Shown here one piece after another: positions 8,997 through 47,994 of a stretch of DNA of 64,000 nt. Source of the stretch: Terebella lapidaria (taxonomy: Eukaryota > Annelida > Polychaeta > Terebellida > Terebellidae). Position numbers and translations under genes: made by a program. The stretch is taken from positions 73,671,499-73,735,498 of the forward strand of contig OX424555.1 of the NCBI GenBank assembly GCA_949152475.1. Reading direction: 5' to 3'. Every line of letters begins with the position of its first letter. The first letter of the stretch is position 1. Below the pieces are notes generated by a model, which saw nothing but the letters and a program-made list of their open reading frames with translations, was not told the origin of the DNA and did not search any database.

Positions 8997-9187
8997 TGAC
9001 GAAATGTCACATCACACGACAACATGACCCAACACAATACGGCTTTTCAAAAATAAGCACGATGCGACTTCAAAGTAAAACAGCGTACGAACTGACACAG
9101 CTCACGAAACCAGAATAAAACGATACGACCTGTATTTTTGTCACTGAATCCGCTTCATACATTATGACTCATGTGTATTCTACTCAC

Positions 9188-9290
9188 CGCCGACATTTGA
9201 CCGGATCCAGTCTGTAATCCACAAACTGGCAATAGCAAAGAGGGCTGCCGCGAAAAACAGCGCTCCAGAAATTATGCTCAGCTTGTCCAT
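9188..9290 (-). CDS. MOSMO: Duplicated MOSMO exon 1
   Basis: This is a complete second copy of the 103-nt first coding exon, with the same ATG, the same 34 codons plus one base, and the same GTGAGT donor. It lies 3,156 bases upstream of the first copy. If the duplication is real, transcripts starting here would carry two exon 1 copies separated by a DIRS fragment; splicing from this donor straight to exon 2 would give an identical protein. Exon 1 has no acceptor, so the two copies could act as alternative first exons. Confidence 0.8.
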
Positions 9291-10253
9291 TTTGGATGAT
9301 ATTATTACTATATTTTCAAGTTATCACTTATCGTGTCATTGTTATATCTACAATGACTCCAAAACCACGAAAAAAGATTAGAATCCTTTACATCAAATGA
9401 TTGAGGACTCCATTTTCAATGTTTACATTTTAGCGCCATCTAGCGAATGCCAACTAGCAGGTGCTCGTTTTAGCTCACCGAAGTTATATATTTTTTTAAA
9501 ATCACATATACATGTACAAGGAAACAAAAATCTAAATTTCAGGTTCCTCAATATCAACGCAAAAGACTGTAAATTTCCCAAATTTTAATTGTAAATTTGC
9601 CGTTTATTGTTATTACTCACCTCTAAACTACTACATGCTCCTTTTCGATCCTTTGGATCGTTCTGGATAGAAATTCGCGTACTGAAAGCAAGGCACGATC
9701 GTCTGCCTGCATGACTCGAGCGCTCCTTTTGCCGCCAAAACCGCCGCGCATATGCGCGCGCAGCTGCGCAGAAGCTTCACTTTTCTGTCCAAAAAACGAC
9801 AAAAGGAAGCCCCTAGCACACAACTGGCGGGGATGGATGGGAGGGCCTTTACTGTAGTAGTTTAGAGGTGAGTAATAACAATAAACGGCAAATTTACAAT
9901 TAAAATTTGGGAAGTTTATTTTATACATCACCAATCTAAACTACTACATGCTCCTTAGAATCAAAGGATAGGCGGTGGAGCAGTAGTGCTAGAGAGTCAT
10001 GAAAACAGACGATAGTCTTGATTTCAAGCGAATCGCTAAAATGCTACATTTTCGATATATCTTTAGTAATATAATAAAGATACTCACCTAGCGGTGCGAT
10101 CGCTTGCCTCCGACATGCACGAATTTCTTCTTCACCCATCGGTGGAAAACGGAACTCTACTTGAGACCGTAACATAAAGAAGTCAAACACAAACACAAAG
10201 TGTTGCTTATATACACGTGCACGTTAAAACCAAGACTTTTCTGTCCAGCTGGT

Positions 10254-13200
10254 TCAAACAACAGCTTGCGCTACGACCAGCGGACCCAGTCTAAATCTGG
10301 ACGACTGGTCCTGAAGTTCGGCAGCATTGGACAGATAGAACCCGATGAATGTCGTAGAACTAGTCCACATTCCAGCCCTCACGATATATTCCAACGGAAT
10401 ATTCGACCTGGCCGCCAAAGACATCGAGATGTGTCGGATTTGGTGGGACGATATTTTGTAAGTGACTCGATCGTCAGCACCTGACTCCGCATAGACAGTC
10501 CTCACTACAACCTTCACCCATCGGGATAGTGTAGCTGTGGAGATATCCGTAGCCCTATTAGGCTGATAGGAAATAAATAATCGCTTGCGATCTTTCCTGA
10601 TCGATCTGGTACGATCGATGTAGATTTTCAGCGCTCTTACCGGGCACAATAGAGCGTCCGGCTCATTCCGTCCTACGTAACCGCCCAGTGACGGAATTAC
10701 GATAGGGGAGAACGCTTTCCCGCCCTCAACTGCAGCACGTGTTTTAGGCATAAAATCACGTACTGGGTATAAGGAAACGGACCCATCCGCGCCAAATGCG
10801 ACTCGCGATACGTCGATCGCCGCGACATCTGAGCGTCTTCGACCACTTGCTAGCATAACTAGCAAGAAAGTCTTAAGAGTTAACCTCTGCAAGGAAACTT
10901 CCTTGAGAGGCTCCCAAGGTGCTTTAGTAAGACAATATAGCACAAAAGCCATGTCCCAATCCGGTAGAGTAGGTACTCCGCGTGGCCTTTGCGTCCTAAA
11001 GGACGCCAAGAGATCAGCAAGGATACGATTATTAGTTAAATCGATCCCCCTAGCACGGAATACAGGGCCCAGCATGGACCTGTATCCCTCGATCGTAGTA
11101 GGCTTCAAATTAAGCCTATCAAAGAGATAGCAGAGAAAGTCTAGCACTGCATTCAGAGGGGCAGAGAGCGGATCAATGCGCCTTCCGTTACACCAACGTA
11201 CGAATACTCTCCATTTAGCCTCATACGTTTTTAGAGGAGGATCTCCTATTCTTTCTCGCGAGATGTACGGACACCTGCTGAGAAAATCCTGCCTCCTGGA
11301 AGGATCGCTCGATAGCCTCCACACGTGTAATTTGAGCACGTGGACGGAATCGTGAAATATATCCCGCCCCGGTTGCTTCAGCAACCTGTCCTCGATCGGG
11401 AGAACCCGTGGTACATCGATCAGGAGGGACAGTAGCAGGGGGAACCACGCCTGCATCGGCCAGCATGGCGCCACCAACAGAATCTCGCACTGAGACCTGG
11501 CTACTTTGTGCAGCACTTCTGTTAGGAACCGAGTTGGCGGGTACGCATACCCGAACATCCCGTCCCACGACTGAGACATCGCGTCCACAGCCAGTGCCTC
11601 GCTCTCTGGCAGAGGTGAGAAGTAGACCGGGAGCTTGTGATTCCGAGAGGTTGCGAACAGGTCTATGTTCGGTGTCCCGAACGCCTGACAAACGCGCCGA
11701 AACACCCCCGGATGCAGACTCCACTCCGTGCCTATGATCTTGTCCGGTCTCGACAGAGCGTCCGCTAGGACATTCCTGTGACCCGGCAGGTGCCTCGCCC
11801 TGATAAACAGACGGTACTTGAAGGCAAACCTGATCAGACACTCGGCCTCCAAACAAAGCTGACTCGACCGAGTTCCACCTTGTTTGTTTATGTGCGCCAC
11901 TACTGTGCTGTTGTCTGTGAAGACCAACCACTTCGTCCCTGGGGGACTCTGAGGCCCCCAGATCTCGAACGCACGTCTCACCGCTCGCAGCTCTAGGACA
12001 TTGATGTGCAACGCCCTCTCGCTCGTGTTCCACACAGCAGAGAGTTCGTGCTCGTCCATATGAGCTCCCCAAGCCAATTCTGACGCATCGGTGAAGAAGG
12101 TCCGATCGGGCAGATACTCCGCCAGTGGCATCCCTCGGAAAAGATTCCGATGGTCCCGCCACCAATGCATTGCTTCCCGAGCACGATCGTCCACCGATAC
12201 GACTTGGTCTAGTCGATCGGTGAGGATCCGCCATTGCAACGCTAGACACCATTGAATGGGTCTGAGGAAGCACCTGCCGAACGGCACCTGTTTCTCCATC
12301 GACGCCAACAGACCGATGATGGACAAAAACTGTCGAGCTGTGATCGACGACTGCGTCAGCGCGACCTCCATCGCCGCAATCGCCTTGAGAACTCTCTTCC
12401 GCGGAGGAAGAGCTACTCCTCGCTCTAGATCGTAATCTACCCCGACATACTCGAACCTTTGTGTCGGGGACAGATGAGACTTCGCCCAATTGGGGATCCA
12501 GCCGAGGCTGGTCGCCAACCTGAGGACGAACCCGGATTGCTCTATAGCCTGAGACGGGGAGTCGGCTATGATTAACCAATCGTCGATATAATGGTGGAAT
12601 TGAATTCCAACCGATCGAAACCTGGCCGATCGAAAGGGGCGGTGGCTACTCCAAAAGGAAGTACCCTGAACTGATACACCGAACCCTCGAAGGCGAACTT
12701 GAGGTATCGCCGATCGACTGGGTGTATTGGCACATGTAAGTACGCGTCCTTGACGTCGATACTGACTGCCCACTTCCCCTTGGACAAAGCTTTCTGGACG
12801 GAAAGCGCCGACTCCATCTTGAACCTGGGTATGATCAGGAATTTGTTGAGGTTTGACAGATCGAAAACGGGACGCCACCCGCCTGTCTTTTTCGGCACTA
12901 GGAAGATGAGAGAATAGAATCCTCTCTCGTCCTTGACCACCTCGATCGCACGTTTCTCTAGCAACTGCTGCACCTCGTGCTGCAGAAGCTGAAACTTTTC
13001 CCGATCGCCGGGCACAGGGAAGAACCACGCTTTGGGTCTGATCGGTGGTTTTCCAGCCTCCCATCTGAAGGTGAGACCGAACTTCACCCATGCCACGACT
13101 GAATTGTCTGACGACGCCAGATCGCTCCAGTTCTGGACGAACTGAGCCAGACGTCCCCCGACTGGACCAGGTTGTGGAAGATCGAATTCCGACAGAACTG

Positions 13201-13726
13201 AACCTTCCACAGAGCCTACGCTTTCCCGCAACGAGTCACTTCTTACCAGAAGCTTTCCCTTTGCCCTTGAAGCGTCCACCCCCTTTGCCTCCGCGCTTGC
13301 CATCCCCCTGGGGAGGGGGAGGCTGCGCCCCCCGAAAGGGCGGCTGCGTAGAAGCGGGTGCATGTGGTGCCTGAGGTTGGGCAGGCTTCTGACCCTTGGT
13401 CTTCTTGCCTGTCCCAGACCCCGCCGACTTCCCAAGCAAAGCCTTGGCCATAGCCTCATCCCTGAGATGTTCCCGCATGACGGAAATATCCGATCGAGAG
13501 AGGTTGGCGTAGGTATAGCCTGAGAAAAGCGGCCTCCCACGTAGCTCAGCGACGTCCGTAGCGGACACGTCAAGCAGACGGAGATCGGCATCACGCATGG
13601 TGAGATCCAATTGTGCGCCCAGGTGCGCACTGTCACGCTCAGCAGCATGGACCACTCCGGCCAAGACGCCGAGTGCTGCATGAATGTTGGCGCGACTACC
13701 CTCCTCCAGATCCGCCTCGTCCACAA
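10254..13726 (-). CDS. DIRS reverse transcriptase-RNase H-tyrosine recombinase region
   Basis: Recognisable parts in order are the reverse transcriptase (SIDVKDAYLHVPIH and the YIDDW active-site box), RNase H (FTDAS, then DNSTVVAHINKQGG and ADALSRP), and a C-terminal tyrosine recombinase. The last has LASGRRRSDV around the first catalytic Arg, HQIRH as the His-x-x-Arg box, and FYLS with the candidate nucleophile Tyr. The recombinase in place of a DDE integrase defines the order. The region overlaps the end of ORF1, as is usual in this family. This is an element gene, not a host gene. Confidence 0.85.
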
Positions 13727-15341
13727 ACTCCTGAACCAAAGTGGTCAGGTGATCCGTCAACGAGAGCTGCCCCATCAATTGATGAGACAGCGTCTGCCAG
13801 TGAGAAAGGCGAGCCTTTTTCACATAAGCTGACCAGACCGTACCCTGCTTCCGGGAAAGCAGGTGAAGGTTAGGGTCTTCGACCGGGACGGAAGTCTGAT
13901 GTCCACCCTCGGACTCTACAGTCCGATAGGTGTCGATCGACTCAGGTCGAACACGGCTAGTCGGGAATGTCGACTCCGTACGAGCCACATCCTTCTTAGC
14001 CGTAACTCCCTTGTTGATCTTGTCGAAGGACTTGACCAACGCGGGAGCCACAGGGAGCCGGATCGGCTGACGAACTGGCGCCGACGCGAACCTACCGGTT
14101 CCCCGTGAGGGCCCTGGAGCATCGATCGGCAAGTCCATTCGCCTTGCGACCGACTCCAAAGCCCACCGGAAGTTAGAACCCCCGGCCTGATCGGAAGTCT
14201 CATCCTCCGAGGAGGACGACTCCTGATCAGCTTCCACTCGACCCCCCCGATCGTTGGACCTCACAGGTCCGATCGAAGACCTCAATGACCCCAAGGGTAC
14301 ATCAAAGGACGGGCGAGGGAATGCCTGCTCAGCGATCGCGCCCGTCCGGCGACTTACATCCGCGTACACAGGACTTGAGTGGCCCTGAGGAACGACCCCA
14401 GCACCACCCGCCCGATCGTGCCCTGATCGAGGACCAGGAGCACGACCGCCAAGTGAAGACTCCCGATCGCACGAATGATCGAGAGCCTCACCCCCAAACA
14501 AAGGGAACTCTCCCCCCTCGAACCTCGAGACCGAGGACCCGAATGAGCCATCCAAGATGCTCCGCCGATCGAAGCCCGAAGCCTGATCGTCGCCCACCGA
14601 GAGGTCGGACGAAGCCTGAGCCACATCGAAAATCGATATGGTCTCAGCACCACGGCGCTTAGAGGAAGCACGCTTCCTCTTCTTGGAAGGCCCCGGGGAA
14701 GAGACGACGGACCCCTCCACCTCGATCGGCCCCGACTGAGGGACGACGAAGGTGGAGTGCGGTTCCTTGGCTGCTTTCGCCTTGGCAAGAACTGAAACCT
14801 TCTTCTTAGAAGATTTCGACTTCTTGCCAGCAGGGGGAGCAAGCTCTCCCTGCGACGAAGGGGCAGCCGAAGAACCGGCCGGGACTCCCTGTCCAAGCAG
14901 GGAAGAGAGACCCGGCAGTAGGGGACCCTGAAGGGACGATAACGACTGTGCAAAGAAAGATTGCACAGCCGCGTTGACCATGTCCTGTGTTAGCCCCAGG
15001 GGCTGGCTAACACCGGACGTAATCTGTGCCGTCACAGGCGGAGTCTCCACCTCCATGGGCGACTGGCGGACTTGCGGAGCCGAAGCTTCCGCAAGCCTCA
15101 AAGCATCCCGACGAGCCAATGAGGCTTCGGAATACTTTGCAGTCGCCTGCACGAAGGAAGAGGGACGCCAGAAACGACACAGATCACACCTCAAATCCTC
15201 CATAGATACCGGGCCATGGTCTAAACAGTCGAAACACAAACTGTGTTTCTCCCCTCCTCGGAGGGTATTGACCAGACACTTCGGGCATGGACGTTCGTCC
15301 ATGGCACCGGTACCAAGGGAGGATTGTGAAGTCATGATCAC
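13236..15341 (-). CDS. DIRS ORF1 (gag-like) region
   Basis: An open region of about 700 codons opens with a cysteine-rich segment (CPKC, CFDC and CDLC pairs) that looks zinc-binding. A long Ser/Pro/Gly-rich and basic middle follows, including KKSKSSKKK, and the C-terminus is very basic and Gly/Lys-rich (GGRFKGKGKASGKK). Family knowledge places a nucleic-acid-binding gag-like protein at this position in DIRS elements. The assignment rests mainly on position and composition. Confidence 0.7.
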   Translation of the reverse strand: MIMTSQSSLGTGAMDERPCPKCLVNTLRGGEKHSLCFDCLDHGPVSMEDLRCDLCRFWRPSSFVQATAKYSEASLARRDALRLAEASAPQVRQSPMEVETPPVTAQITSGVSQPLGLTQDMVNAAVQSFFAQSLSSLQGPLLPGLSSLLGQGVPAGSSAAPSSQGELAPPAGKKSKSSKKKVSVLAKAKAAKEPHSTFVVPQSGPIEVEGSVVSSPGPSKKRKRASSKRRGAETISIFDVAQASSDLSVGDDQASGFDRRSILDGSFGSSVSRFEGGEFPLFGGEALDHSCDRESSLGGRAPGPRSGHDRAGGAGVVPQGHSSPVYADVSRRTGAIAEQAFPRPSFDVPLGSLRSSIGPVRSNDRGGRVEADQESSSSEDETSDQAGGSNFRWALESVARRMDLPIDAPGPSRGTGRFASAPVRQPIRLPVAPALVKSFDKINKGVTAKKDVARTESTFPTSRVRPESIDTYRTVESEGGHQTSVPVEDPNLHLLSRKQGTVWSAYVKKARLSHWQTLSHQLMGQLSLTDHLTTLVQEFVDEADLEEGSRANIHAALGVLAGVVHAAERDSAHLGAQLDLTMRDADLRLLDVSATDVAELRGRPLFSGYTYANLSRSDISVMREHLRDEAMAKALLGKSAGSGTGKKTKGQKPAQPQAPHAPASTQPPFRGAQPPPPQGDGKRGGKGGGRFKGKGKASGKK

Positions 15342-15993
15342 GAAAGGGAACTAACCACACACAGTAACAGGGCGGGCAAAATACGCAAACCTGAGACCGC
15401 GTTGAAAAAGAACCCTAAGAGGACTACGAATATATAAACTACAGTATACGTATACACAATATATACAGTAGAAAATTAACGTAGAACTATTGATAGATGT
15501 AAACAACAAGTACACTATCAAGTACGACGGATGGACGATAATAGGGTGAACTGGCTATACAAATCGCTGACGATCTAGCAAGTAACAAACTATCGACCAA
15601 TACTTATCCAAATAGACACAAAACGATGTCTATGAACGTGGCAGGTGAAATTCCGTAAGAATATATCGCAAAAGTCTAGTTTGCAGACTAAATTCTACGA
15701 ATTCACCGGGAACCAAAATCCAAAGCTGCCAAGCAAAAATGGCGGTGGACAGAAAAGTGAAGCTTCTGCGCAGCTGCGCGCGCATATGCGCGGCGGTTTT
15801 GGCGGCAAAAGGAGCGCTCGAGTCATGCAGGCAGACGATCGTGCCTTGCTTTCAGTACGCGAATTTCTATCCAGAACGATCCAAAGGATCGAAAAGGAGC
15901 ATGTAGTAGTTTAGATTGGTGATGTATAAAATAAACCTACATTTGCAGTTATATGATTTCACTTGCTTGGTTGCCGCCTACAGCTTGGTACTA

Positions 15994-19036: not shown

Positions 19037-21597
19037 AGGTTACCGGACAATATACATTTTAGATATTAGCCTTTTGTCCAGTGACCTTGAAAATAAAGTC
19101 ACTGATAAATTCAAGGCCATGAAATTTTCAACAAATATATCACTTCTAGTATGTCCACAATAAATTCATAAGCTGTAAAGTCGATAATAAGTGAGACATT
19201 AGCCATTCTGTGATGTGACCTTGAAAATGAGGTCAAAGTTCAAGTTCAAGGTTATGAAAATATTCAGTATATATCATTCCTCTATATTCGTAATTGATTC
19301 CTATGCTGTAAATGTAAGTACCAATCTATTACCACCAATACAATCAGATTTTGATGATGCCAATAAGAAACGTAAAATACTACACTTTGCCATGGAAACA
19401 AACAAAGCCCGACCAAATAGTTTATCCAAAGACACACTGGCGTCTTCAGGGGCAGACAATGTGTTAAATGTAGTTGTTTCTACTGTACACCAGATGGAAT
19501 TAGTACTATGAAAATAATTTAGAAATCCGAATCTAACCCCATGGAATAGATACATGACAAGTACAAAAGTACCCAATCACAAGCCCGAAGGCTACTGAGT
19601 TGATGGTATCCTCGGGGACAGATTTAACGTCCGCCAGCAGTGACACCGACTCAGTGGTATAAATGTAAGTATCAATCTATCACCACCAATACAATCAAAT
19701 TTTGAAGTTGCCAATAAGGAAAGTAAAATACAACATTTTGCAATAGAAACAAAGCCCGACCAAATAGTTTATCCAAAGACACACTGGCGTCATCAGGGGC
19801 AGATGTAAAGATGATAATAAGGGACATATTAGCCATTTTGTTCTCTGACCTTGAAAATGAGATCAAAGGTCAAATTCTAGATCACCAAAATATTCAGCAT
19901 ACATCATTTCCTATATGTTCACTATGGACCCCTAAGCTGTAAATTTGATAATAAGCGAGATATAAGCCATTTTGTATTTTGACCTTGAAAATAAAATGAC
20001 TAACCTTGAAATTTAGGTCAAGGGTCAAATTCAAGGTCACTAGAATATTCAGCATATATCATTTCCTATATGTTCACAATTGATTCCTAAGCTGCAAAGT
20101 CGCTAATAAGCAAGATATTGGCCATTTTGTCCTGTGACCTTGAAAATGAGGTCAAAGGTCAAATTCAAGGTCACGAGAATATTCAGCATATATCATTTCC
20201 TATATGTTCACAATTGATTCCTAAGCCGTAAAGTCGATAATAAGCGAGATATTAGCAATTTTGTCCTGTGACCTTGGAAATGAGGTCAAAGGTCAAATTC
20301 AAGGTCACGAGAAAATTCAGCATATATCATTTCCTATATGTTCACAATTGATTCCTAAGCTGTAAAGTCGATAATAAGCGAGATATTAGCCATTTTGTCT
20401 TGTGACCTTGAAAATGAGGCCAAAAGTCAAATTCAAGGTCACGAGAATATTCAGCATATATCATTTCCTATATGTTCACAATGGATTCCTAAGCTGTAAA
20501 GTCGATAATAAGCGAGATATTAGCCATTTTGTCCTGTGACCTTGAAAATGAGGTCAAAGGTCAAATTCAAGGTCACGAGAATATTCAGCATATATCATTT
20601 CCTATATGTTCACAATTGATTTCTAAGCTGTAAAGTCGATAATAAGCGAGATATTAGCCATTTTGTCCTGTGACCTTGAAAATGAGGTCAAAGGTCAAAT
20701 TCAAGGTCACGAGAATATTCAGCATATATCATTTCCTATATGTCCACAATTGATTCCTAGTCTCTAATCTCAATATTAAGTGAGATATTAGGCTTGATGT
20801 GTCCCATTATAAAGCATGGGAAAATTTATCATGGGAAAGTCACATCTGGGCCGAGTTTGGGCCCAAAATGGCCCACTTCGAGTGATTCAAGCGCAACGAA
20901 ATTTATACATGTCACAGAAGTACATATGAGGAGTGTTATGCATCAATAAGAAAAAAAGTTACTGAACAGATTTTGAGAAAACGACCATCAAAGTCCAAAA
21001 TTAGCCATTTTCGACGAGAACGGCCGCTATGACCTTGAAACTAAGGTCAGAGGTCAAATTCAAGGTCACGAGAATATTCAGCATATATCATTTCCTATAT
21101 GTCCACAATTGATTCTTAGTCTCTAATTTCAATTTTAAGTGAGATATTAGGCTTAATGTGTCCCATTATAAAGCATAGGAGAATTTAACATGGGAAAGTC
21201 CCATTTGGGCCGAGTTTGGGCCCAAAATGGCCCACTTCGAGCGATTCAAGGGCAACGAAATTTATACATGTCAAAGGGGTACATAGGAGGAGTGTCATGC
21301 ATCAATAAGAAAAAAAGTTACTGAACAGATTTTGAGAAAACGACCGTCAAAGTCCAAAATTGGCCATTTTTCGACGAAAAAGGCCGCCATTTTGAAAAAA
21401 ATGCGAAAATCAAAAAACTAAAAAAAACCTTTCCTGGAAATATTTTTAGGTATTTTTGTGCAAAATTTCAGAAATATTCGACCATAAACTTTAAAGATAA
21501 AAATGTGAACGGACGACGGACGGACGGACGGACGGCTAGACGGACGACGGACGCAACGCCACGGCAATAGGTTATCGGACCAAAGGTCCGGTAACCT
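19037..21597 (+). repeat. Long copy of the dispersed AGGTTACCGGAC repeat family
   Basis: The copy begins AGGTTACCGGACAA (preceded by TTAGCCCAAGGGCTAAG) and ends GGTTATCGGACC-AAA-GGTCCGGTAACCT. It therefore has short inverted termini. The interior holds the AGGTCA satellite array, then two tandem copies of a block containing TGGGCCGAGTTTGGGCCC (about 20760-21020 and 21055-21330), then the common 3' half with GGACGGAC repeats. At 19318-19460 and 19669-19815 a direct repeat of a coding-looking stretch occurs. No transposase or reverse transcriptase is visible. Confidence 0.75.
19070..20765 (+). repeat. About 134-bp satellite carrying DR1 and extended AGGTCA sites
   Basis: From about 19980 to 20765 the unit repeats at spacings of 133-135 bases (GTGACC at 20134, 20269, 20402, 20536 and 20670). 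Earlier, more degenerate units start near 19078, 19206 and 19850. The unit core runs GTGACCTTGAA, then GAGGTCAAAGGTCAAA, then TTCAAGGTCAC: an 11-base inverted repeat flanking a perfect AGGTCA-A-AGGTCA. The rest of the unit is AT-rich (ATTCAGCATATATCATTTCC). The array lies inside the dispersed repeat copy. Confidence 0.85.
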
Positions 21598-23433: not shown

Positions 23434-26400
23434 TCATCTCGGTTCGATAGTAGATATTTTGTTGTTATCTGGTGTATCACTGAGGCAGGTGTATGTTTCC
23501 AAATGAACAGTGGACACTGGCGCTGTACATTGCATGGAAAGAGTCCCTAGATCTGTGACACATGAGTTGTGTTTGTCTGACAAGTTGACATCCGCCCGAC
23601 ATTCTGCAGTAATGATATCAGGAGACTGAGTTTTGACCATGCCATCGATGAGATCGGTGGCACTGGAGTGTTCAGAGTTCTCTTGGTTGTGTTGTTGCTT
23701 AGTCCTTGCTAATAGCTTGTGCCCTGAAAGATTTCACCATCATCATATTGAGGATTAAAAGATTTTGAACAAGATTATGTGTATTGTATCATTCACATGA
23801 TAATGATCAGACAGACCTGGACAATCCAAGTTGTCTCTGTTGACAGTTTTCTTGCAGCAAGCCTTGCACAGATTAAACCCACACTTCAGACCCTGCAAAC
23901 AGAAGGCATTGTAAACAGGTGAATCATGAAACTTCTATTATGATATTTTTTTCATCTAGGGCTAATGAAAAACTGTTAAACAATGTAGTTACAGTGCCAT
24001 TATTGATATCAATTTCACCGTTTGTGACCCAGCAATATTTTGATGCACTTACTTTAGGGTTGCCACAAGTGGTACATTTTTCAAATTTCTCTGGACGGTC
24101 CTCAAATTTCTTATGTGGATTTCGCCGAAGTTTCTTGAGTTTGTTGCGGGAGACGGGTTTTTCCTCGAGTGCTCCCCCAGCCTCTCTCAGTGGACGCTTG
24201 ACCTTCTGTCGATCACGCTGCCTCTGTTCCGTTTCTTCTGGACTAATGAGTAATATACAACATCAGACCATTAAGCAAAACTATTATGGTGTACAAAACG
24301 TCTGTGGAAGCGTACAGCAGAACTTTGGTATGTAGTATATCAGGTATATGTACCACAAAAAAATCCAATTTGGCTGATTTTCTGAGGAATTTTCTGATCA
24401 CAAGTTTTGAGATGCCATTTGATTCATACTGTCTAAAATTTTTAAGTTAGGATCTCAAAATTAGGGTCTGGCAGTAGCATGTTACCATCTGTATTTGTAT
24501 TTTGATTTAGGGATTCCCCATTAAAAAAAAATTAGCCCCAGGGCTAAGATAGGTTACCGGACAATTTTGGTTGAAGCACGACAGGTGAGATATGATATTC
24601 AGATCAACCATTCGAGGTCATCTTCGTGAACTTCAATGTCACCATCAAGTGTGCAGCATATAACCTTGTATATGTTCAAAATACAAATACACGGTCTATC
24701 TACAAGTATTTTGTCATTAGACAAAATTTACACATTTCAGTCCAACATTTTTTTCAAAGGGTGAACAATTTATTTTTTTGCCTAGAAATGACCCAAAATG
24801 GATAGTAATGCGATTTGAGGCAAAAAAAATTTTTCCCGTCGACCCGTCAAAAATTCAAAATGGCTGCCACACTGAGACCGGCGATTCAAGGGCAATAAAA
24901 CTTATATACATCACAAGAATCATACCTGGTGCAAAGCACCAGATCTCCCCGGATGACAGAAGTCAATAGGGCGATCATTTCTAGCACTGTTTTCAATTTA
25001 ATTCTGTGCGCATAATATATAGGCCTACGATGTCCATGCCGGACGAATATACCGATGTGAAAGCAATTGGTACCGTATAGTTCGTATGAACACTGATCAA
25101 GTACGCCCATAAAAAAATCGAGTCCCTGATCAAGTACGCCCATAAAAAAATCGAGTCCCTGATCGAGTACGCCCATTAAAAAATTAGCCCAAAGGCTAAG
25201 ATAGGTTACCGGACAATTTTGGTTTGGCCATGGCAGCATTGGCCGGTAACAGACTTTGAGATTTACCAATCAAGGTTTGCAGTGTAAACATATGACCTTG
25301 GGATTTACCAATCAAGGTCATCCGTATGAACTTCGATGTTACCATTACATGTATGTGTGCGGCATTTGATATTCTATATTTTGGGTGGAATCGTTTAGGC
25401 CGCTCAGGTCAATTTACACATTCCAAGTCAGACATTTGGCACTCAAGGTCATCTGACGTCAAGTTCAAGGTCATCATTAGTTGTGCCATATATGTCTTCC
25501 TATATGTTCATAATGCAAACATGAGCTCTATCTGCAAGCATTTCATCTACAGAGGCAAATCTGGGCATTTTTTGACCCCAAAATGGCTGTTTTGACCTTT
25601 CAAGGTCATCGAAGGTCAAATTCAAGGTCACCACACAAGTCGCAATATATGACTTCCCATTTGAAAGTGCCAATTTCTAAGCTCTATCTTCAAGTGTTCT
25701 ATGAGTACAGTCCAGGCAGCTCCCATTAAGGAGGAAAAAAGTGATGAAAATATCTCGTCCAAAATTTTTTTCAAACGGTGAAAATTTTTTTTTGCCTAGA
25801 AATGGCCCAAAATGGATAGTAATGCGATTTGGGGCGAAAATTTTTTTTTTCGCCGACTCGTCAAAAATTCAAAATCGCCACCACACTGAGATCGGCGATT
25901 CAAGGGCAACAAAACTTATACACGTCACAGAGGTATATAAGAGGAGTCTTCTTAAGCAAAAATCTCAAAACTGATCAGACAGTTTTTGAGAAAATACAGA
26001 CCAGGTGCAAATTTGAGCGTTTTTCGACCCAAAAATGGCTGTTTTGACCTTTCAAGGTCATCCAAGGTCAAATTCAAGGTCACCACACAAGTCGCCATAT
26101 ATGACTTCCCATTTGAAAGTGCCAATTTCTAAGCTCTATCTTCAAGCGTTCTATGAGTACAGTCCGGACAGCTCCCATTATGAAGGAAAAAAGTGCTGAA
26201 AATTTTCCAAGTCCAAAATTTTTTTCAAAGGGTGAAAAATTTTTTTTGCCCTAGAAATGGCAAAAAATGGATAGTAATGCGATTTGGGGCGAAAAAATTT
26301 TTTTTCGCCGACCCGCCAAAAATTCAAAATGGCCTCCACACGGAAACCGGCGAATTTAGGGCAACCAAACTTATACATATCACAGAGGTATATGAGGGGA

Positions 26401-33803: not shown

Positions 33804-33859
33804 AACATGCAGTGTATAATGTATGGAAAGAGATATGGAATGTATGGAAAGAGATATTG

Positions 33860-34352
33860 AGTTACTAAGTCATACGTATGAAATTAAAAGTCATACGTAT
33901 GAGATAATAAGTCATACGTATGAGATACCATCTCATACGTATAAGATACTAAGTCATACATATGAGATACTATCTCATATGTATGAGATACTAAGTCATA
34001 TGTATGAGATACTAAGTCATATGTATGAGATAATAAGTCATACGTATGAGATAGTATCTCATACGTATGAGTATGTCATAGTATCTTCTACGTATGAGTT
34101 AGTATCTCCTACGTATGAGTTAGTATCTCCTACGTATGACTTAGTATCTCATACGTATGACTTATTATCACATACGTATGACTTATTATCTCCTACGTAT
34201 GACTTAGTATTTCATACGTATGTGTTAGTATCCCCTACGTATGACTTGTTATCTCATACGTATGTGTTAGTATCTCCTACGTATGACTTGTTATCTCATA
34301 CGTATGTGTTAGCATCTCCTACGTATGACTTTTTATTTCATACGTATGAGAT
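33860..34352. repeat. Palindromic satellite with core CATACGTATG that switches orientation
   Basis: About two dozen units of roughly 21 bases each carry a perfect palindrome TCATACGTATGA or a one-base variant. In the left half most units read AGTCATACGTATGAGATA. In the right half they read TATCTCATACGTATGACTTA, the reverse complement. The change of polarity occurs near 34050-34080. A long open frame crosses the array, but it is only a consequence of the 21-base period. Confidence 0.85.
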
Positions 34353-34455
34353 AAATAAAAAAATAACTTCCCTTTTTGGTGGCACGAACGGGGCGCCATA
34401 AGTAAAGACTGAAGTGTGAAGTGTGAATCATCAGTTTTTGCAAGCGATTAAAAGC

Positions 34456-39307: not shown

Positions 39308-42300
39308 TCAGTTCCTTCGCCACTTCCCCATCTGGGCAAATATATCACTGCGAAGGTTTTGTGCGAAGCAGATACCAAGGATCTGAAAATCCAACAGGAC
39401 AGATCATCAATCAACAGATAATACTTGTATTGTATGGTATCTATTCATGACTTAGTGGTGGATGTTTTAGTATTGATAATTCTGGGAAATAAACATTTAT
39501 GGGCTCATAAGTTACACAGTTACAGAAAGCAGTATCTCTAGGTTACCATTCCAGTTTTTATCCTGAACACAGACTCAATAGTATCACATATTACATATAT
39601 TAGTACCGTAATACGGTATATCCTTTCACCATCGACTGACCTGAACTAAAGCAATGCCTACAGCTACGCCCGCTATAGGTATCAGGTTACTATTGAACCA
39701 CTCCTCTCCAGCCTTGACACAGCCCTTTGTGTAAATCTCTGTCTCAGCATTTGGTGTCTGGAAACATGCAAGTTTGTTGTTGCGTTACAGCTGTTTGACA
39801 TGTACAGTACTGATTCTGCAAAACCTCATTAGCCATGCGAATGCGACATGCTAATTGCTAGCCCATGCGTTCACGTGTGACCTGTGAGTGCGATGCCAAC
39901 ACATCCGACAGCCATCTTAGTTGAACAGACGAGCACTGTCTCCCACAGATGCCACAGTGCCAATTAGTAATGCTAGCATCAGGGGATGCTCGCACACACA
40001 AGGCCAGCATCAAATCACACGATGCTACGTCAGGCGAAATTAGGCTAGCACGTGCTGAATGCCAGATTCAGCATGCTAGCATTTTGGTGAGGTTTTGCAA
40101 AATCGGTACTGTATTTCAAGTTCTTAAAACATTTACAGACTAGCTACAATGACCTTTTCTGATATTTCTGTTTGTTTCAGGCAGGAATATCAATACAGTC
40201 AATAGAGGACAACAATCAATATATATTGATATCTACATGTAGCAAACTAAGTTTATTTTTCATCATTTTAGACGATATAGTTATGTCAATGATTTTATTT
40301 TGTTGATTGAAACCAAATATCCTGAATGCTTTCCTACATAAATATTCTACATATCGTCACCAACCTTTTCAACATTTCTGGCATCATACCCGCACTGATA
40401 GTTCACAATAGCTTCCTGGCAAAACAAATACATGTAAAATTTGAAATCTCTGGCAGTTGCATGTACATGTTAATTAACATGGTAAATGTTCTGATTCGGT
40501 AATTTATTTACTTTTAATCTAAATGTAAATCAAATGCTTTAATTTGAAATTATAATTAATCTGCGAAGCTACAGAGGGACATCACACGCTACATGTATGC
40601 CCCAGAGCCGACAGTTAGACTTACATCAGACAGGGCAGACTTGGGCAGACAACAGGAGTATGGCACCCCGCACCTCTCTCTGCTTGGTGATGTACAGTTG
40701 AAATACACATTGGCGTCCCAGTCATTGTAACTCTCTACACCGCAACACTTCAACTGTCAAACAAACACCACAGTCAACACGGTACACCAGCGTCAAAGGT
40801 CACCTAAATGTAGCGTATTTTGTGAGTATGAAGTACAGGTACCGTACTTGCACTTACATGTATTCCCATAAGTGCAAGTACGATACCTGGACATACATTT
40901 TGTCATGCAATGGAACGTACATGTTATCTAACAATTAGATAACAATCTAACATTAGATCTGAGATTATTATCCAACTGTTACTAAAGCTTTCTGTAGCTG
41001 TGAAGCTTTCGACTTTAAAACATTTTCTTATCAATATGGATTTCATATTAGGTTGGAATACACGAATACATGTACCTGTTTGACGGGACTTCATAAACAA
41101 CAAATATACATGCTCATTGTATATTCAGGTTAAAAGTGTTACTTGTTCACTCAAACAAAATGTTTTTCATATCCTGCTGACTGTGCACCCACATGTAAAC
41201 TTGTAGCAGGAACTCACCCAGTCTGCCTGGACCCAGTCTATGGGATTCTGCAAGTCACTACAGGAACTCACCCAGTCTATGAGATTCTGCAAGTCACTAC
41301 AGAAACTCACCCAGTCTATGAGATTCTGCAAGTCATTACAGGAACTCACCCAGTCTGCCTGGACCCAGTCTATGAGATTCTGCAAGTCACTACAGGAACT
41401 CACCCAGTCTATGAGATTCTGCAAGTCATTACAGGAACTCACCCAGTCTATGAGATTCTGCAAGTCATTACAGGAACTCACCCAGTCTGCCTGGACCCAG
41501 TCTATGAGATTCTGCAAGTCACTACAGGAACTCACCCAGTCTATGAGATTCTGCAAGTCATTACAGGAACTCACCCAGTCTGCCTGGACCCAGTCTATGA
41601 GATTCTGCAAGTCACTACAGAAACTCACCCAGTCTATGAGATTCTGCAAGTCATTACAGGAACTCACCCAGTCTGCCTGGACCCAGTCTATGAGATTCTG
41701 CAAGTCACTACAGGAACTCACCCAGTCTATGAGATTCTGCAAGTCATTACAGGAACTCACCCAGTCTGCCTGGACCCAGTCTATGAGATTCTGCAAGTCA
41801 CTACAGGAACTCACCCAGTCTATGAGATTCTGCAAGTCACTACAGGAACTCACCCAGTCTATGAGATTCTGCAAGTCATTACAGGAACTCACCCAGTCTG
41901 CCTGGACCCAGTCTATGAGATTTGCAAGTCACTACAGGGGCTCACCCAGTCTATGAGATTCTGCAAGTCATTACAGGAATTCACCCAGTCTATGAGATTC
42001 TGCAAGTCATTACAGGAACTCACCCAGTCTGCCTGGACCCAGTCTATGAGATTCTGCAAGTCATTACAGGATCTCACCCAGTCTGCCTGGACCCAGTCTA
42101 TGAGATTTGCAAGTCACTACAGGGGCTCACCCAGTCTATGAGATTCTGCAAGTCATTACAGGAATTCACCCAGTCTATGAGATTCTGCAAGTCATTACAG
42201 GATCTCACCCAGTCTGCCTGGACCCAGTCTATGAGATTCTGCAAGTCACTACAGGAACTCACCCAGTCTATGAGATTCTGCAAGTCATTACAGGAACTCA

Positions 42301-45300
42301 CCCAGTCTGCCTGGACCCAGTCTATGAGATTCTGCAAGTCACTACAGGAACTCACCCAGTCTATGAGATTCTGCAAGTCACTACAGGAACTCACCCAGTC
42401 TATGAGATTCTGCAAGTCATTACAGGAACTCACCCAGTCTGCCTGGACCCAGTCTATGAGATTTGCAAGTCACTACAGGGGCTCACCCAGTCTATGAGAT
42501 TCTGCAAGTCATTACAGGAATTCACCCAGTCTATGAGATTCTGCAAGTCATTACAGGAACTCACCCAGTCTGCCTGGACCCAGTCTATGAGATTCTGCAA
42601 GTCATTACAGGATCTCACCCAGTCTGCCTGGACCCAGTCTATGAGATTTGCAAGTCACTACAGGGGCTCACCCAGTCTATGAGATTCTGCAAGTCATTAC
42701 AGGAATTCACCCAGTCTATGAGATTCTGCAAGTCATTACAGGATCTCACCCAGTCTGCCTGGACCCAGTCTATGAGATTCTGCAAGTCACTACAGGAACT
42801 CACCCAGTCTATGAGATTCTGCAAGTCATTACAGGAACTCACCCAGTCTGCCTGGACCCAGTCTATGAGATTCTGCAAGTCACTACAGGAACTCACCCAG
42901 TCTATGAGATTCTGCAAGTCACTACAGGAACTCACCCAGTCTATGAGATTCTGCAAGTCATTACAGGAACTCACCCAGTCTGCCTGGACCCAGTCTATGA
43001 GATTTGCAAGTCACTACAGGGGCTCACCCAGTCTATGAGATTCTGCAAGTCATTACAGGAATTCACCCAGTCTATGAGATTCTGCAAGTCATTACAGGAA
43101 CTCACCCAGTCTGCCTGGACCCAGTCTATGAGATTCTGCAAGTCATTACAGGATCTCACCCAGTCTGCCTGGACCCAGTCTATGAGATTTGCAAGTCACT
43201 ACAGGAACTCACCCAGTCTATGAGATTCTGCAAGTCATTACAGGAACTCACCCAGTGTGCCTGGACCCAGTCTATGAGATTTGCAAGTCACTACAGGAAC
43301 TCACCCAGTCTATGAGATTCTGCAAGTCACTACAGGAACTCACCCAGTCTATGAGATTCTGCAAGTCATTACAGGAACTCACCCAGTCTGCCTGGACCCA
43401 GTCTATGAGATTCTGCCAGTCAGTACAGGAACTCACCCAGTCTGCCTGGACCCAGTCTATGAGATTCTGCAAGTCACTACAGGAAATCACCGAGTCTATG
43501 AGATTCTGCCAGTCAGTACAGGAACTCACCCAGTCTGCCTGGACCCAGTCTATGAGATTCTGCAAGTCGCTGTCATCTCTGTAGTTGACGATCATAATCT
43601 TCAGCTGTTTCTGTACTTGGTCAACAACCTGGAATCATTGGTTATAACGAATGAAGTTCATGATTGTTCACTGTCAGAAAATAAGTACATGTATGTTTGA
43701 AAAAATTATTATTATAATACATTGTTTATACTACATTAACAACATAGAAATATATGCAAGTATAGAATTACATACATGTATGTAGTATAGATATACTATT
43801 AAATCTTTGGGTGTTTGCTTAGCCTTTTCTCATTTAGAGACATATTCGAACAAATTAAAAATAGAGGCTAATGTTGCTATAGTGTAGTTTACATGTTCAT
43901 GAACACATTTGAGGCATTGATTAGAATTCGCAGAAAAAGAAACAGATCTTTGAAAACTATCCAAAATATATGAATGGAAATTCAGGGCTTTTACTCTGAA
44001 GGATGCCTGAAACTCATGTACATGCATGTTTTGGAACATGTTGAAACGACTGCATATTGAACACATTTATCCTGGTAGTATAAAATGTAAGCATGGGTAA
44101 TATATTCAGATCATGAGCATCCCCTTGCTGTGTCCACTCAAATTTTACAATCATTGTACGAGTTTTTGTTGGCTCAGATCCAAACTGAATACTGATGTGA
44201 AAGTGATCAGACCAGTAAGCACATCATGACTACATGTACACCGGTCTTTATCGCACAAAAAACAGCACTTGGGTTGAATAAATATCATTTAAATGAACAA
44301 TAGCACAGCTAGATCAATGCTTCCACTTTCTAATCACGCTAAATCCCTAATGTATCAATGTATTTTTTTTCCACGAGTACTTCCTTTACTTTAGACACCC
44401 ACTCCTGCATTACGTACTTCTCTGAAATATTACTACTGGTAATGTAGACATGCATGTACACTATGGTAAAAAAAAGTAGTGTCATCGGCAAGATATTTTG
44501 GAATACAAATGTAACTTGATACATGTACTACAGTAATATAGGAAACTGATATATCAAATTTTAGCAGACCATATTCCTTGAAAAAATGGAGCTCAAATTA
44601 CATGTAACTTATAATGTTCTGGTTAACTTCACTTTACTTTTGCTTGTGTAATGTGTGATTGATACTGTGATTTCCATTCAACAGTGCACTCGAAGTATGA
44701 AGCTACATACTAGTATTCCTGGAAAGTGCAGCATAAACTAGAGAATGTCAGTCTAGACTAGCAAGTCTACATTGGTGAGTCAGGTACATGTACAATACAT
44801 TGTGGGAGGCAATTTACATGTACTATCAATACATAACGATACATACATGTGTACAATTTCTGTGAATTAGGATACAGGATTGATTTTGAGACAGAGTTTT
44901 ACACAGAGAATTCAATGTAATATTAAGCGGCATCATTTGTCAGTCAGATAAACATGTGTGTGATGTGTGTTTATTCAGAAATTCCATTCATCATGTTCAT
45001 TTACAATGAAGTCCTAATCCGGCATAGCGGTACAGGTACATGCAAAAGGAAATGTACATGTAATGATTAATTATCAATAGAACAGTGTGCAATGGTGAGC
45101 TGTTAACAGTCACTAAATTGTAAAGCACTGCAAGTGATATGTTAACTGACAACCAGAACTCTTACTGACTAGTTTTAGCATAGTGTCTAAATTGTTATTG
45201 CTTAGCCTATATTGTCTATATTGTTATTGCATCTTACCCAACTCTTGTAAACAAAGCCTATCACGGCTACGCCAATTTCAGCAAATAAAAGTATGCCTAG

Positions 45301-47994
45301 AAATATGCAGTACTGCAAAGAAAACAAGCAAAGAAAAATAGCATAGCAAAACTTTCAAAACCATCCGTTTGTGCTCATCAATGCTCATAGGACCACTGAT
45401 ATAAAAAGACCAGTGCCTAGAACTCCTATGATTGAAAGCATATGCATGTTATCATGAACCAAGCTGTGCCAATGCACTCAATCACGCACTATTCAGTATG
45501 TTTGGTGCAATCCTGTAAATTGAACATGTTGAATGTCGGCACCAATTTTTTACCATGATGTACATGAGCATGATCCATAATAAACCACATGTTCACACAT
45601 TGTACAGCGACATGTTATAAGTAAAGCAGCTAACACAGCACCTCCGACTTCGACATGCAGCTCAAGCTCCTGACACAGGGAAAAATCACAGCCAGCAGAT
45701 TTCCTTCCACCACCTGAATTAACCAAGCTGATTAATTCTGATTTCTATACCATCCTCAAGTGCTCAAAATTACAAAAAAAAATTCTGACAATCAATACGT
45801 GTAAGCCAAGCAGCTAGGGTCACATGTATACGAATAGATGTATGCACCGGAAAACGATAATTTGGGAACCAATAAATCGAACAACTCTCACTCTCAGAGC
45901 CATGGTGGACACCATCTTGTGCAATACAAAACTGACAATGCTGAAACTGCATTTTAGGATTTATATTTGTACATTGTACTAGTAGGTATTCTCTTTTGTG
46001 GGGTGTGCAGTGGCTGGGGTAATAATACATGTACATTATTGACTAAGGTTGTATACAAAAACATGCATACAGGAAGCTACACGTATATACCAATAAACAT
46101 GTACAGGATTTACATTGTACGGACAAAAATAAGATGTAAAAAGAGTACACAGAAAGGAAACTCACACACCCAGTCAACAGTACCAGAAGCACATTACTGC
46201 ACGTTTCTGTCAGAACATGTATTGCACACGTTTGGGAACACAATAAAATTTTCGACCACATTCGTTTCGCCAATTCTTACCCATTCTTTGTAGACAAAGA
46301 AAATGATTCCGATGGCAAGTTCAGCAAATAGTACAATTCCTACACAGACACAGTACTGGAAGGAGGGAAGAAAACACAAGAGTCTTGATCAATTTCCATC
46401 TAATTCTGAACAAGATAAAAAGCCAATTTTTCACAGAAGAGAAATAACATTGAAATATCTACCTATATGCTTATTGTGAAGCCACAATTGAGTTCCTATT
46501 GAAAGATATTTTTCTCGGATCTGGTATACAGGGACATGATTGGATTTGGAAACATTACTCATGTGACGGCTTTACAAGTATGTTCATTGGGATCAGCAGA
46601 CGTATCAAAAGATACCAATGAAATACATACATGTGTTACTTGTATGTATCATGAGAAAACATCTGGAAAGAGCATGAACCTCAGAACAGGACATAATTGA
46701 GGAGACATGTATACAAAATCTTCCTGCTACCTAGAGGTTCCGCAATTAACTTGATTAAACTATAACAAATATTCTGTAATGAAATGACTCTGAAAAGAAA
46801 TAGCATTAGCATTGTACAAAATGGAACACCATAATATACATGTATGTTCCAATATGTTATCAATGCATCTAAAAAATTATAAATTATGTCTAATACATTA
46901 TGATCAAAGCCATCATTGGTAACTAGTGTTGTTATATTTCTAACATACAGTATTCAGAGATACTAGATACAATTCAATTTGCAGTAATCGCGGTTACACG
47001 TTTATATACTATTTGATAAATTTTATATGGTATTGTATATATGTACTTATACAGGCATTGTCTGTCTTCAACATCACAGTTATAAACCCAAGCAAGTGGC
47101 ACTTACAATGAGAAGCAGGACAGTATTTTCCCGCAGTGCACCCACACATCCCGTGAATCCGATCACGAAGACGACAGCACCGCCAATGATGAATATCAAC
47201 GCTGGATCCAGAGGGATGGACGTCACTTTACCAATGTTTGTGAACATATCCTTCTCTGACCACGCCCAGAGTCCAGTGGCACATATCAATCCTCCAAACA
47301 GCTAACAAAAACAAACAAAAACTTCATACATTTAGATATATAATAATCTTACACTGCATACAATTTTACCATTTATTTATTCATTTATCATTTTTACCCA
47401 GGAAGACATACAACGATAATGATTATGATACATTAAATATTCCTTCACAGTTAATACAATGCTCACAGTAAAATAAAAAAATACCATATTGGTCCTAATA
47501 GTGGCAAGTGCCCTAATAGTAGTGCGCCCCCTTCTTTTCTACAAAAATCTTCCGATATTTGTAACCTTGTATTTCACTTCATATAATTCTAATATACTCT
47601 TGGAGTATTCCAATTCACATTTTTATGTTATTTGAATCATAATCAATGGGGTTGAAGGCTATAGGTATTTGTCCGTACAATGTAAATCTCAACAGAGATT
47701 TTCTTGAAATTTGAACTCAAATTTCACTTCATTTTTGCGTGCGCTACTGCAGGTCTTGCTTTGGCACGCCATGCTATTATTAGGACCAATACGGTATAGT
47801 CATATATATTCAACAACAATGACGACAAAGGGCCATCTGCAAGTACAACAGGTTTATACAAAGCTCTTTAACACTGGTCTTACACTTACCCAAAATATCA
47901 CGTTGAATCCAAAGACGAGGTATTTGATGGCACAGCTAACTTCGGTTGAGTCGCGCCTGCGTACGCCAACATGTGGTGGGTGTGATCGAGCCAT
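39308..47994 (-). CDS. TspanC8-type tetraspanin with alternative third exons
   Basis: Exons are 47994-47890, 47301-47107, third exon 46355-46281 or 45312-45238, then 43628-43530, 40753-40625, 40415-40365, 39757-39641 and 39382-39308. All are in phase zero with GT-AG ends, giving 281 residues with either third exon. TM1 (YLVFGFNVIFW) and TM2 (FIIGGAVVFVIGF then CVGALREN) precede an alternative TM3. The large extracellular loop has DLQNLIDWVQADW, LKCCG, FNC, RCG, YSCC, QCGYD and KGC, eight cysteines in all, which defines the TspanC8 class. TM4 and ILGICFAQNL close the protein. TspanC8 proteins escort ADAM10 from the ER and steer its substrate choice. The sequence resembles TSPAN5/14/17 in my recollection, so I give no exact symbol. 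Intron 4 begins with a 2.4 kb minisatellite of the exon 4 end. Confidence 0.93.
39803..40113. mobile_element. 311-bp TIR mini-element in a tetraspanin intron
   Basis: The left end TACAGTACTGATTCTGCAAAACCTCA and the right end reverse-complemented as TACAGTACCGATTTTGCAAAAC agree at nearly every base. The interior is unlike the AT-rich host, with many GCTAGCA and GATGC motifs. CAGTA ends next to TA suggest a Tc1/mariner-type element. It sits in the intron after exon 6. Confidence 0.75.
40826..40896. repeat. Short hairpin in a tetraspanin intron
   Basis: GTACAGGTACCGTACTTGCA-CTTA pairs with TAAG-TGCAAGTACGATACCTG around a 12-base loop. The two arms of about 24 bases have one or two mismatches. 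It is probably a tiny palindromic repeat. Confidence 0.65.
41209..43575 (-). repeat. Minisatellite of about 52 copies of the tetraspanin exon 4 end plus 5' splice site
   Basis: Units of 39 or 54 bases, with five 53-base variants, run from the end of exon 4 into intron 4. On the minus strand each unit is a coding block (AATCTCATAGACTGG, or twice that length ending GGCAGACTGG). A 24-base block that starts GTGAGTTCCTG and ends GACTTGCAG follows it. The first unit is the true exon 4/intron 4 junction. Every unit therefore repeats a consensus-like 5' splice site, and most keep the frame of exon 4 (DLQNLIDWV then SSC). A twelve-unit superrepeat of 541 bases occurs at 41922, 42463 and, in part, 43004. 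The plus-strand long open frames here are by-products of the period. Confidence 0.9.
43530..43628 (-). CDS. Tetraspanin exon 4, source of the minisatellite
   Basis: This 99-nt exon encodes VVDQVQKQLK to VQADW, the start of the large extracellular loop. Its acceptor is TTCCAG and its nearest donor TGG-GTGAGT. The alignment with TSPAN5-like proteins (RDD, DLQNLID then W before the CCG motif) supports this end as the normal one. Six further donors downstream are in the same frame before the first stop. Confidence 0.85.
43700..45237. other. Tetraspanin intron, no further exon recognised
   Basis: AT-rich intron sequence between exon 4 and the nearer third exon contains many ACATGTA-type motifs. 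I found no additional exon or element end that I can support. Confidence 0.4.
45238..45312 (-). CDS. Alternative tetraspanin exon 3b (TM3 version)
   Basis: A 75-nt phase-zero exon encodes YCIFLGILLFAEIGVAVIGF then VYKSW. It has acceptor TTTGCAG and donor GTAAGA. It has the same length, phase and position as exon 3a, 970 bases upstream on the gene strand, and 12 of 25 residues are changed. Inclusion of both would keep the frame but add a second TM segment and break the four-TM topology, so mutually exclusive use is expected. Confidence 0.85.
46281..46355 (-). CDS. Alternative tetraspanin exon 3a (TM3 version)
   Basis: A 75-nt phase-zero exon encodes YCVCVGIVLFAELAIGIIFF then VYKEW. It has acceptor CTTCCAG and donor GTAAGA. 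It is paired with exon 3b. Differences cluster in the lipid-facing middle of TM3 and in the last residue pair before the extracellular loop (KE against KS), while the start and the LFAE core are shared. Confidence 0.85.
47482..47796. mobile_element. 315-bp TIR mini-element in tetraspanin intron 1
   Basis: The left end TACCATATTGGTCCTAATAGTGGCA is mirrored by TGCTATTATTAGGACCAATACGGTA. The inner sequence has no ORF of note. TA lies at both termini. Confidence 0.75.

Follow-up and report, generated by a model that had tools for sequence, protein, structure and literature searches.

A 64,000-nucleotide (nt) stretch of contig OX424555.1, referred to here as the window, carries on its minus strand a tetraspanin gene in which the boundary between exon 4 and intron 4 has been amplified in place into a tandem array of 51 head-to-tail units (Table 1). 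We hypothesise that this array belongs with the 'mirages', boundary minisatellites published from lancelet genes, and consider it probable that the array is mostly neutral, that it is spliced out through the exon-proximal donor, here called D1, and that an ordinary TspanC8 protein is made. The in-place amplification had been described in an earlier note on this DNA and is confirmed, the repeat unit being composed of a 42 nt exon tail and 12 nt of native intron. The same note had counted some 52 donor copies, which agrees with our count of 52 donor-like sites (51 units plus the native intron start at 41217), numbered D1 to D52 from exon 4.

The units are of three lengths, with 29 of 39 nt, 15 of 54 nt and 7 of 53 nt. 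The 54-nt unit corresponds to a 42-nt tail of exon 4 followed by the 12 nt that open intron 4, and the fifteen units of this length each agree with exon tail plus native intron in 50-52 of their 54 positions. Deleting 15 nt from the commonest 54-mer, at any of 10 adjacent places if one mismatch is allowed, gives the commonest 39-mer, as expected if the shorter variant arose by a 15-nt loss between two copies of an internal 9-nt repeat. It had been claimed that every unit splits exactly into a coding block of 15 or 30 nt and a block of 24 nt; this is true of 44/51 units, whereas 7/51 lack one G and read TTGCAAATC. The 24-nt block was said to begin with GTGAGT and to end with TTGCAG, and 36 of the 52 donors do have GTGAGT, but the other 16 have different hexamers (5 GTGAGA, 5 GTGAGC, 5 GTGAAT and 1 GTGATT) and in 2/51 units the block ends with TGGCAG. 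The donor that had been placed at 43530 is displaced by one base, as 43530 is the last base of exon 4 and the first intron G is at 43529. When up to 3 mismatches are allowed the 24-nt motif has 51 matches in the window, of which 51/51 are within the array, and 0 in 100 shuffles of the window.

The center of the array is homogenised, with identical 12-unit blocks in mid-array. At an offset of 541 there is an identical run of 1002 nt, the identity over the whole array being 0.706, and singleton unit types sit towards the array ends (T0-T2, T5 and T6 in units 1-8; T12-T14 in units 43-51). The identical 541-bp blocks, together with singleton types near both ends, suggest that the turnover of the array is young, and the identity of these blocks (541/541) makes it likely that array length is unstable. 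We propose that the array began with a head-to-tail duplication of a 54-bp segment spanning the end of exon 4 and the start of intron 4, that the 39-bp variant would have come from the loss at the internal 9-nt repeat, and that unequal exchange or slippage may then have spread blocks of units up to 51 copies. The coding blocks of 15 and 30 nt and the kept frame are there because of how the repeat was born, and selection is not needed to explain them. An origin from a mobile element or foreign DNA was rejected, as neither viral_contigs nor genome_contigs gave an exact match to the 24-nt motif (0 in each), which is a weak test as neither collection is meant for animal genomes.

Table 1. Coordinates of the array, its donors and the host gene in the window
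Feature	Position	Strand	Remarks
Tandem array, 51 head-to-tail units	41218..43529	-	2312 nt; also found by Tandem Repeats Finder
Donor D1, TGG|GTGAGT	43524..43529	-	expected normal 5' splice site
Donors D2-D6	43299..43490	-	first bases 43490, 43436, 43382, 43343, 43304; only other in-frame donors
Unit 6	43252..43304	-	first unit with 1-nt deletion; carries stop; part of every extension past D6
Higher-order repeat of 12 units (541 bp), two adjoining copies	41893..42974	-	541/541 identical
Native intron 4 start, 52nd donor copy, GTGAGTTCCTGC	41206..41217	-	array ends there
Whole tetraspanin coding region	39308..47994	-	eight exon positions, exon 3 in two versions, 281 aa
Exon 4	43530..43628	-	99 nt; exonic part of the repeat derives from its final 42 nt
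Exon 5	40625..40753	-	begins LKCCG; 3' partner of exon 4 (gene model)

Judged by its sequence, the gene that hosts the array is intact and encodes a TspanC8-like tetraspanin. In the gene model 9/9 candidate exons are multiples of three in length and the joined frame of 281 codons stays open with either version of exon 3. The gene matches Pfam family PF00335 (E 4.3e-52), the closest solved structure is that of TSPAN15 (PDB 8esv_B, E 6e-47), and the large extracellular loop, counted on the translation, has eight cysteines in the pattern CC, C, C, CC, C, C, which we take to be the mark of TspanC8 tetraspanins. These matches bear out the family to which the gene had already been assigned. TspanC8 proteins are described as regulators of ADAM10. 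At the junction of exons 4 and 5 (43530 / 40753, minus strand) the alignment gives one residue more than in TSPAN15 (VQADWLKCCG vs VQKK-FKCCG). The two versions of exon 3 (46281-46355 and 45238-45312, minus strand; 75 nt each, with good splice sites) encode a transmembrane segment and are identical at 14/25 residues and 49/75 nt. They are likely to be alternative exons and are perhaps mutually exclusive, with the reading frame alone permitting both together.

Arrays of this kind are known from the lancelet, where mirages have been published in Adh3, the globins BflGb6 and BflGb9, troponin C and PGBD5 (PMC3087553, PMC3902484). Their units measure 10-72 bp in Adh3, 60 and 108 bp in PGBD5 and 150-160 bp in the globins, and the mirages are reported to occur without disturbance of splicing, that of troponin C giving no aberrant mRNAs (PMC3087553, PMC3902484; troponin C, PMC3902484). 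The tetraspanin array shares three features with them. Its units span an exon-intron boundary and carry both exon end and splice site; their lengths of 39, 53 and 54 bp are inside the published range of 10-160 bp (PMC3087553); and its center is homogenised while the end units have diverged, as in BflGb6, where end units are left out of homogenisation (PMC3087553, PMC3902484). Its identical blocks would also be compatible with the length and somatic instability of lancelet mirages. There are also differences, as the host gene, a tetraspanin, is not among the lancelet hosts listed, the array has 51 full units rather than the 6 and 3 units of the BflGb6 haplotypes, and it is the donor side that is copied and not, as in BflGb6, the acceptor side. 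We suggest, from the likeness in these three features, that the tetraspanin array is a large further case of the same kind. A search of the literature by title or the start of the abstract found no tetraspanin precedent for boundary arrays, though such a case may have been published.

The introns on either side of exon 4 measure 1609 nt (counted from exon 3b; more if exon 3a is used) and 2776 nt, and introns of this length suggest exon definition, which by human rules favours the upstream donor. In five human exon-definition minigenes with two identical donors the upstream one was used exclusively, and 60% of human events in which the donors are nearly equal favour the upstream donor (PMC9225289). 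On these human rules use of D1 would be expected, by its position and not its strength. The acceptors inside the array are weak, which is in keeping with its removal as a whole. Exon definition would pick D1, the array would now lie inside intron 4 and would normally be spliced out as a whole to leave the ordinary TspanC8 protein, and the array itself would be mostly neutral, with a copy number that is expected to vary.

Splice sites were scored with tables and by pairing with the 5' end of U1. D1 has a table score of 9.20 and a U1 duplex of -10.4 kcal/mol, each the second best among the gene's 8 donors (after exon 7 with 9.30 and exon 1 with -12.2 kcal/mol). Separately, the exon 6 donor (GTTGGT, 40359-40364, minus strand) scores 5.91, the second lowest of the eight, that of exon 2 being 5.64. 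The array is rich in good donors, as had been proposed, with 36/52 scoring at least as high as D1; elsewhere in the window this is reached by 40/7315 GT sites (0.33 per kb per strand). One 11-nt context is common to 34/52 donors, including D1.

If the donors were maintained for a purpose, changes would be expected to avoid them. Among 13 distinct changes from the consensus, over 54 columns, 4 fall within the 6 donor columns, 6 within the 18 other columns of the 24-nt block and 3 within the 30 exon-like columns. Donor hexamers are, if anything, enriched for change (4/13 in 6/54 columns, one-sided binomial 0.048), in a test that weights all columns alike, though columns 40-54 exist in 22/51 units, and that draws on few events from units that are not independent. 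This is the reverse of donor constraint and thus the donors are not preferentially kept, there being no sign of selection on the donor hexamers in these 13 changes. Likewise an RNA structure module was rejected, as the predicted folding of three stretches from the array region does not surpass that of shuffled sequence (z -0.20, -0.22 and +1.46). In a lone 39-nt unit the donor is paired within a modest hairpin (z -1.86; 11/200 shuffles as good), the 54-nt unit is not outstanding (z -0.02) and DNA folds are unremarkable (z -0.73 and +0.39).

Several points weigh against the proposal of a neutral array spliced out from D1. Without a filter for equal strength, about 60% of human events prefer the downstream donor (PMC9225289), and D1 is no stronger than most other donors of the array. 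Its predicted accessibility is also among the lowest, the 9-nt site being predicted as unpaired with a probability of 0.0001, compared with a median of 0.0011 in the array, 0.0043-0.0307 for the gene's 7 other donors and a median of 0.0092 for 81 other GTRAG sites. The acceptor of exon 4 itself is weak (3.77, the lowest in the gene and barely better than those of the array), which softens any argument from weak acceptors. Lastly, the lancelet parallel is one of likeness, drawn from the single sequence examined here.

The consequences of using other donors are limited by the reading frame. Extension of exon 4 to D2, D3, D4, D5 or D6 inserts 13, 31, 49, 62 or 75 residues, the frame staying open through exon 5 and one cysteine being gained per step. 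The first seven or so donors had been thought to share the frame; this is the case for D1-D6, but from D7 onward the frame runs into the stop in unit 6, and all donors beyond D6 (46/52) close the frame because unit 6 belongs to every longer extension (the stop was seen in the translations from D7-D9 and D50-D52). Similarly, the gain of 13 or 18 residues with one cysteine per unit, in a WVSSC motif, is correct for D2-D6 except that unit 2 reads VISC. D2 is GTGATT and weak, with a score of 4.56 vs 9.20 for D1. Rare in-frame isoforms from D2-D6 may occur; occasional use of D3-D6 would add 31-75 residues, and use of D7 onward would lead to a stop and probably to decay of the mRNA.

Repeat donors are used in at least one human gene. 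The minisatellite of human IFI6 is built of 12-bp units in about 26 copies. This minisatellite of the gene, also called 6-16, supplies multiple splice donor sites (Turri 1995; PMC4526556, PMC2572611), and two downstream repeat units act as donors, giving three mRNAs (PMC4526556). The tetraspanin minisatellite likewise offers multiple putative donor sites, six of them frame-compatible, but its units are of 39/54 bp and its distal units lead to a stop. It could be that D3-D6, and weakly D2, are spliced to an appreciable extent in the manner of IFI6, which would produce TspanC8 isoforms lengthened by 31-75 residues, with 2-5 additional cysteines immediately ahead of the CCG motif. D3-D6 do score equal to D1 and keep the frame, and exon 4 would then measure 192-324 nt. 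We nevertheless regard this as unlikely, given the exclusive choice of the upstream of two equal donors in minigenes (PMC9225289) and the changes in units 1-3, which cause amino-acid substitutions (L to W, W to S and S to I vs other units) and give no sign of protein constraint; moreover, surplus cysteines next to the disulfide core would probably impair folding.

Another possibility, to which we assign a rather low probability, is that the array is a donor decoy or recruits U1, with 36 strong U1 sites in 2.3 kb acting in cis as an intronic enhancer, as a brake on the splicing of intron 4 or as a shield against premature polyadenylation. The excess of donors at least as good as D1 over the rest of the window is consistent with this, as is one substrate in which a 5' splice site appended downstream boosted splicing beyond two copies of a strong exonic splicing enhancer (PMC8724738). 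However, the donor density follows from duplication alone, and the hexamers are not preferentially kept.

It is improbable, in our view, that proximal in-frame donors are used so that an unstable minisatellite varies the TspanC8 ectodomain between individuals or cells, with distal donors tuning output via nonsense-mediated decay; the length would then change in steps of 13 or 18 residues with one cysteine each, perhaps through somatic instability. The earlier note had suggested that the array could be a splice-slippage module or a donor decoy, and we consider a maintained module of either sort possible but unsupported: only five extra donors are in frame, one of them weak, the hexamers lack preferential conservation, the upstream of equal donors is expected with long flanking introns on human data (PMC9225289), and comparable lancelet arrays are reported not to disturb splicing (PMC3087553, PMC3902484).

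We think it very unlikely that D1 is joined to an internal TTGCAG acceptor, so that microexons add 5 or 10 residues (NLIDW, NLIDWVQADW), with tandem duplication thereby starting the gain of introns and exons. It would fit with 44/51 units keeping CAG before the coding block, with blocks of 15 or 30 nt in those units, and with a model of such kind proposed for lancelet globins (PMC3087553). In potato, too, duplication across an intron-exon boundary yields new splice signals, a duplicated intron 1/exon 2 boundary having given birth to a new intron that is spliced (PMC4974935), whereas in the tetraspanin the donor side has been amplified many times. The internal acceptors, however, score 2.42-3.57 vs 3.77-11.65 for the gene's own, the two commonest being equalled or beaten by 26% and 19% of 6519 other AG sites, and the exons would be very short. 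That the array length is partly an assembly artefact, with identical 541-bp blocks collapsed or inflated, is scarcely credible in spite of the 1002-nt identical run and of one lancelet mirage that was aberrantly assembled in a genome draft (PMC3087553), as distinct end unit types and exact exon and intron edges make the boundary array real whatever its length.

A coding array was also rejected, the frame being broken in unit 6 and six more units having the identical 1-nt loss. A stop-to-stop frame of 335 residues crosses the array on the plus strand (41134-42138); long open frames exist on both strands of the array because the repeat units are stop-free, and they do not point to a gene. Tandem Repeats Finder shows that tandem repeats abound in the window, other arrays being at 19804-21387 (periods of about 134-402 bp), 25093-25184 (33 bp) and 33818-34353 (21/42 bp). 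The Pfam scan also took in nine neighbouring open reading frames (ORFs). Retroelement-like long ORFs at 7101-15350 (minus strand), presumably DIRS-like, have weak matches to reverse transcriptase and tyrosine recombinase (phage integrase) below the Pfam cut-offs, and this region is partly duplicated, because two plus-strand ORFs (7525-7971 and 10681-11127) give the same 149 residues. A plus-strand ORF at 57893-58234 matches Pkinase (E 9.7e-13) and is CDK-like by eye. No tRNA was found in the window.

The tetraspanin array constitutes a natural experiment on donor choice, in which an intact gene has 36 GTGAGT donors in series behind a single exon. Use of D1 alone would support exon-proximal donor choice in vivo, and if other donors are used the number of repeats would set protein length. 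The array also gives a detailed view of the origin and spread of a boundary duplication, which has been proposed as a step in intron gain. If its host is not a lancelet, the array would widen the described range of such arrays relative to the papers cited here.

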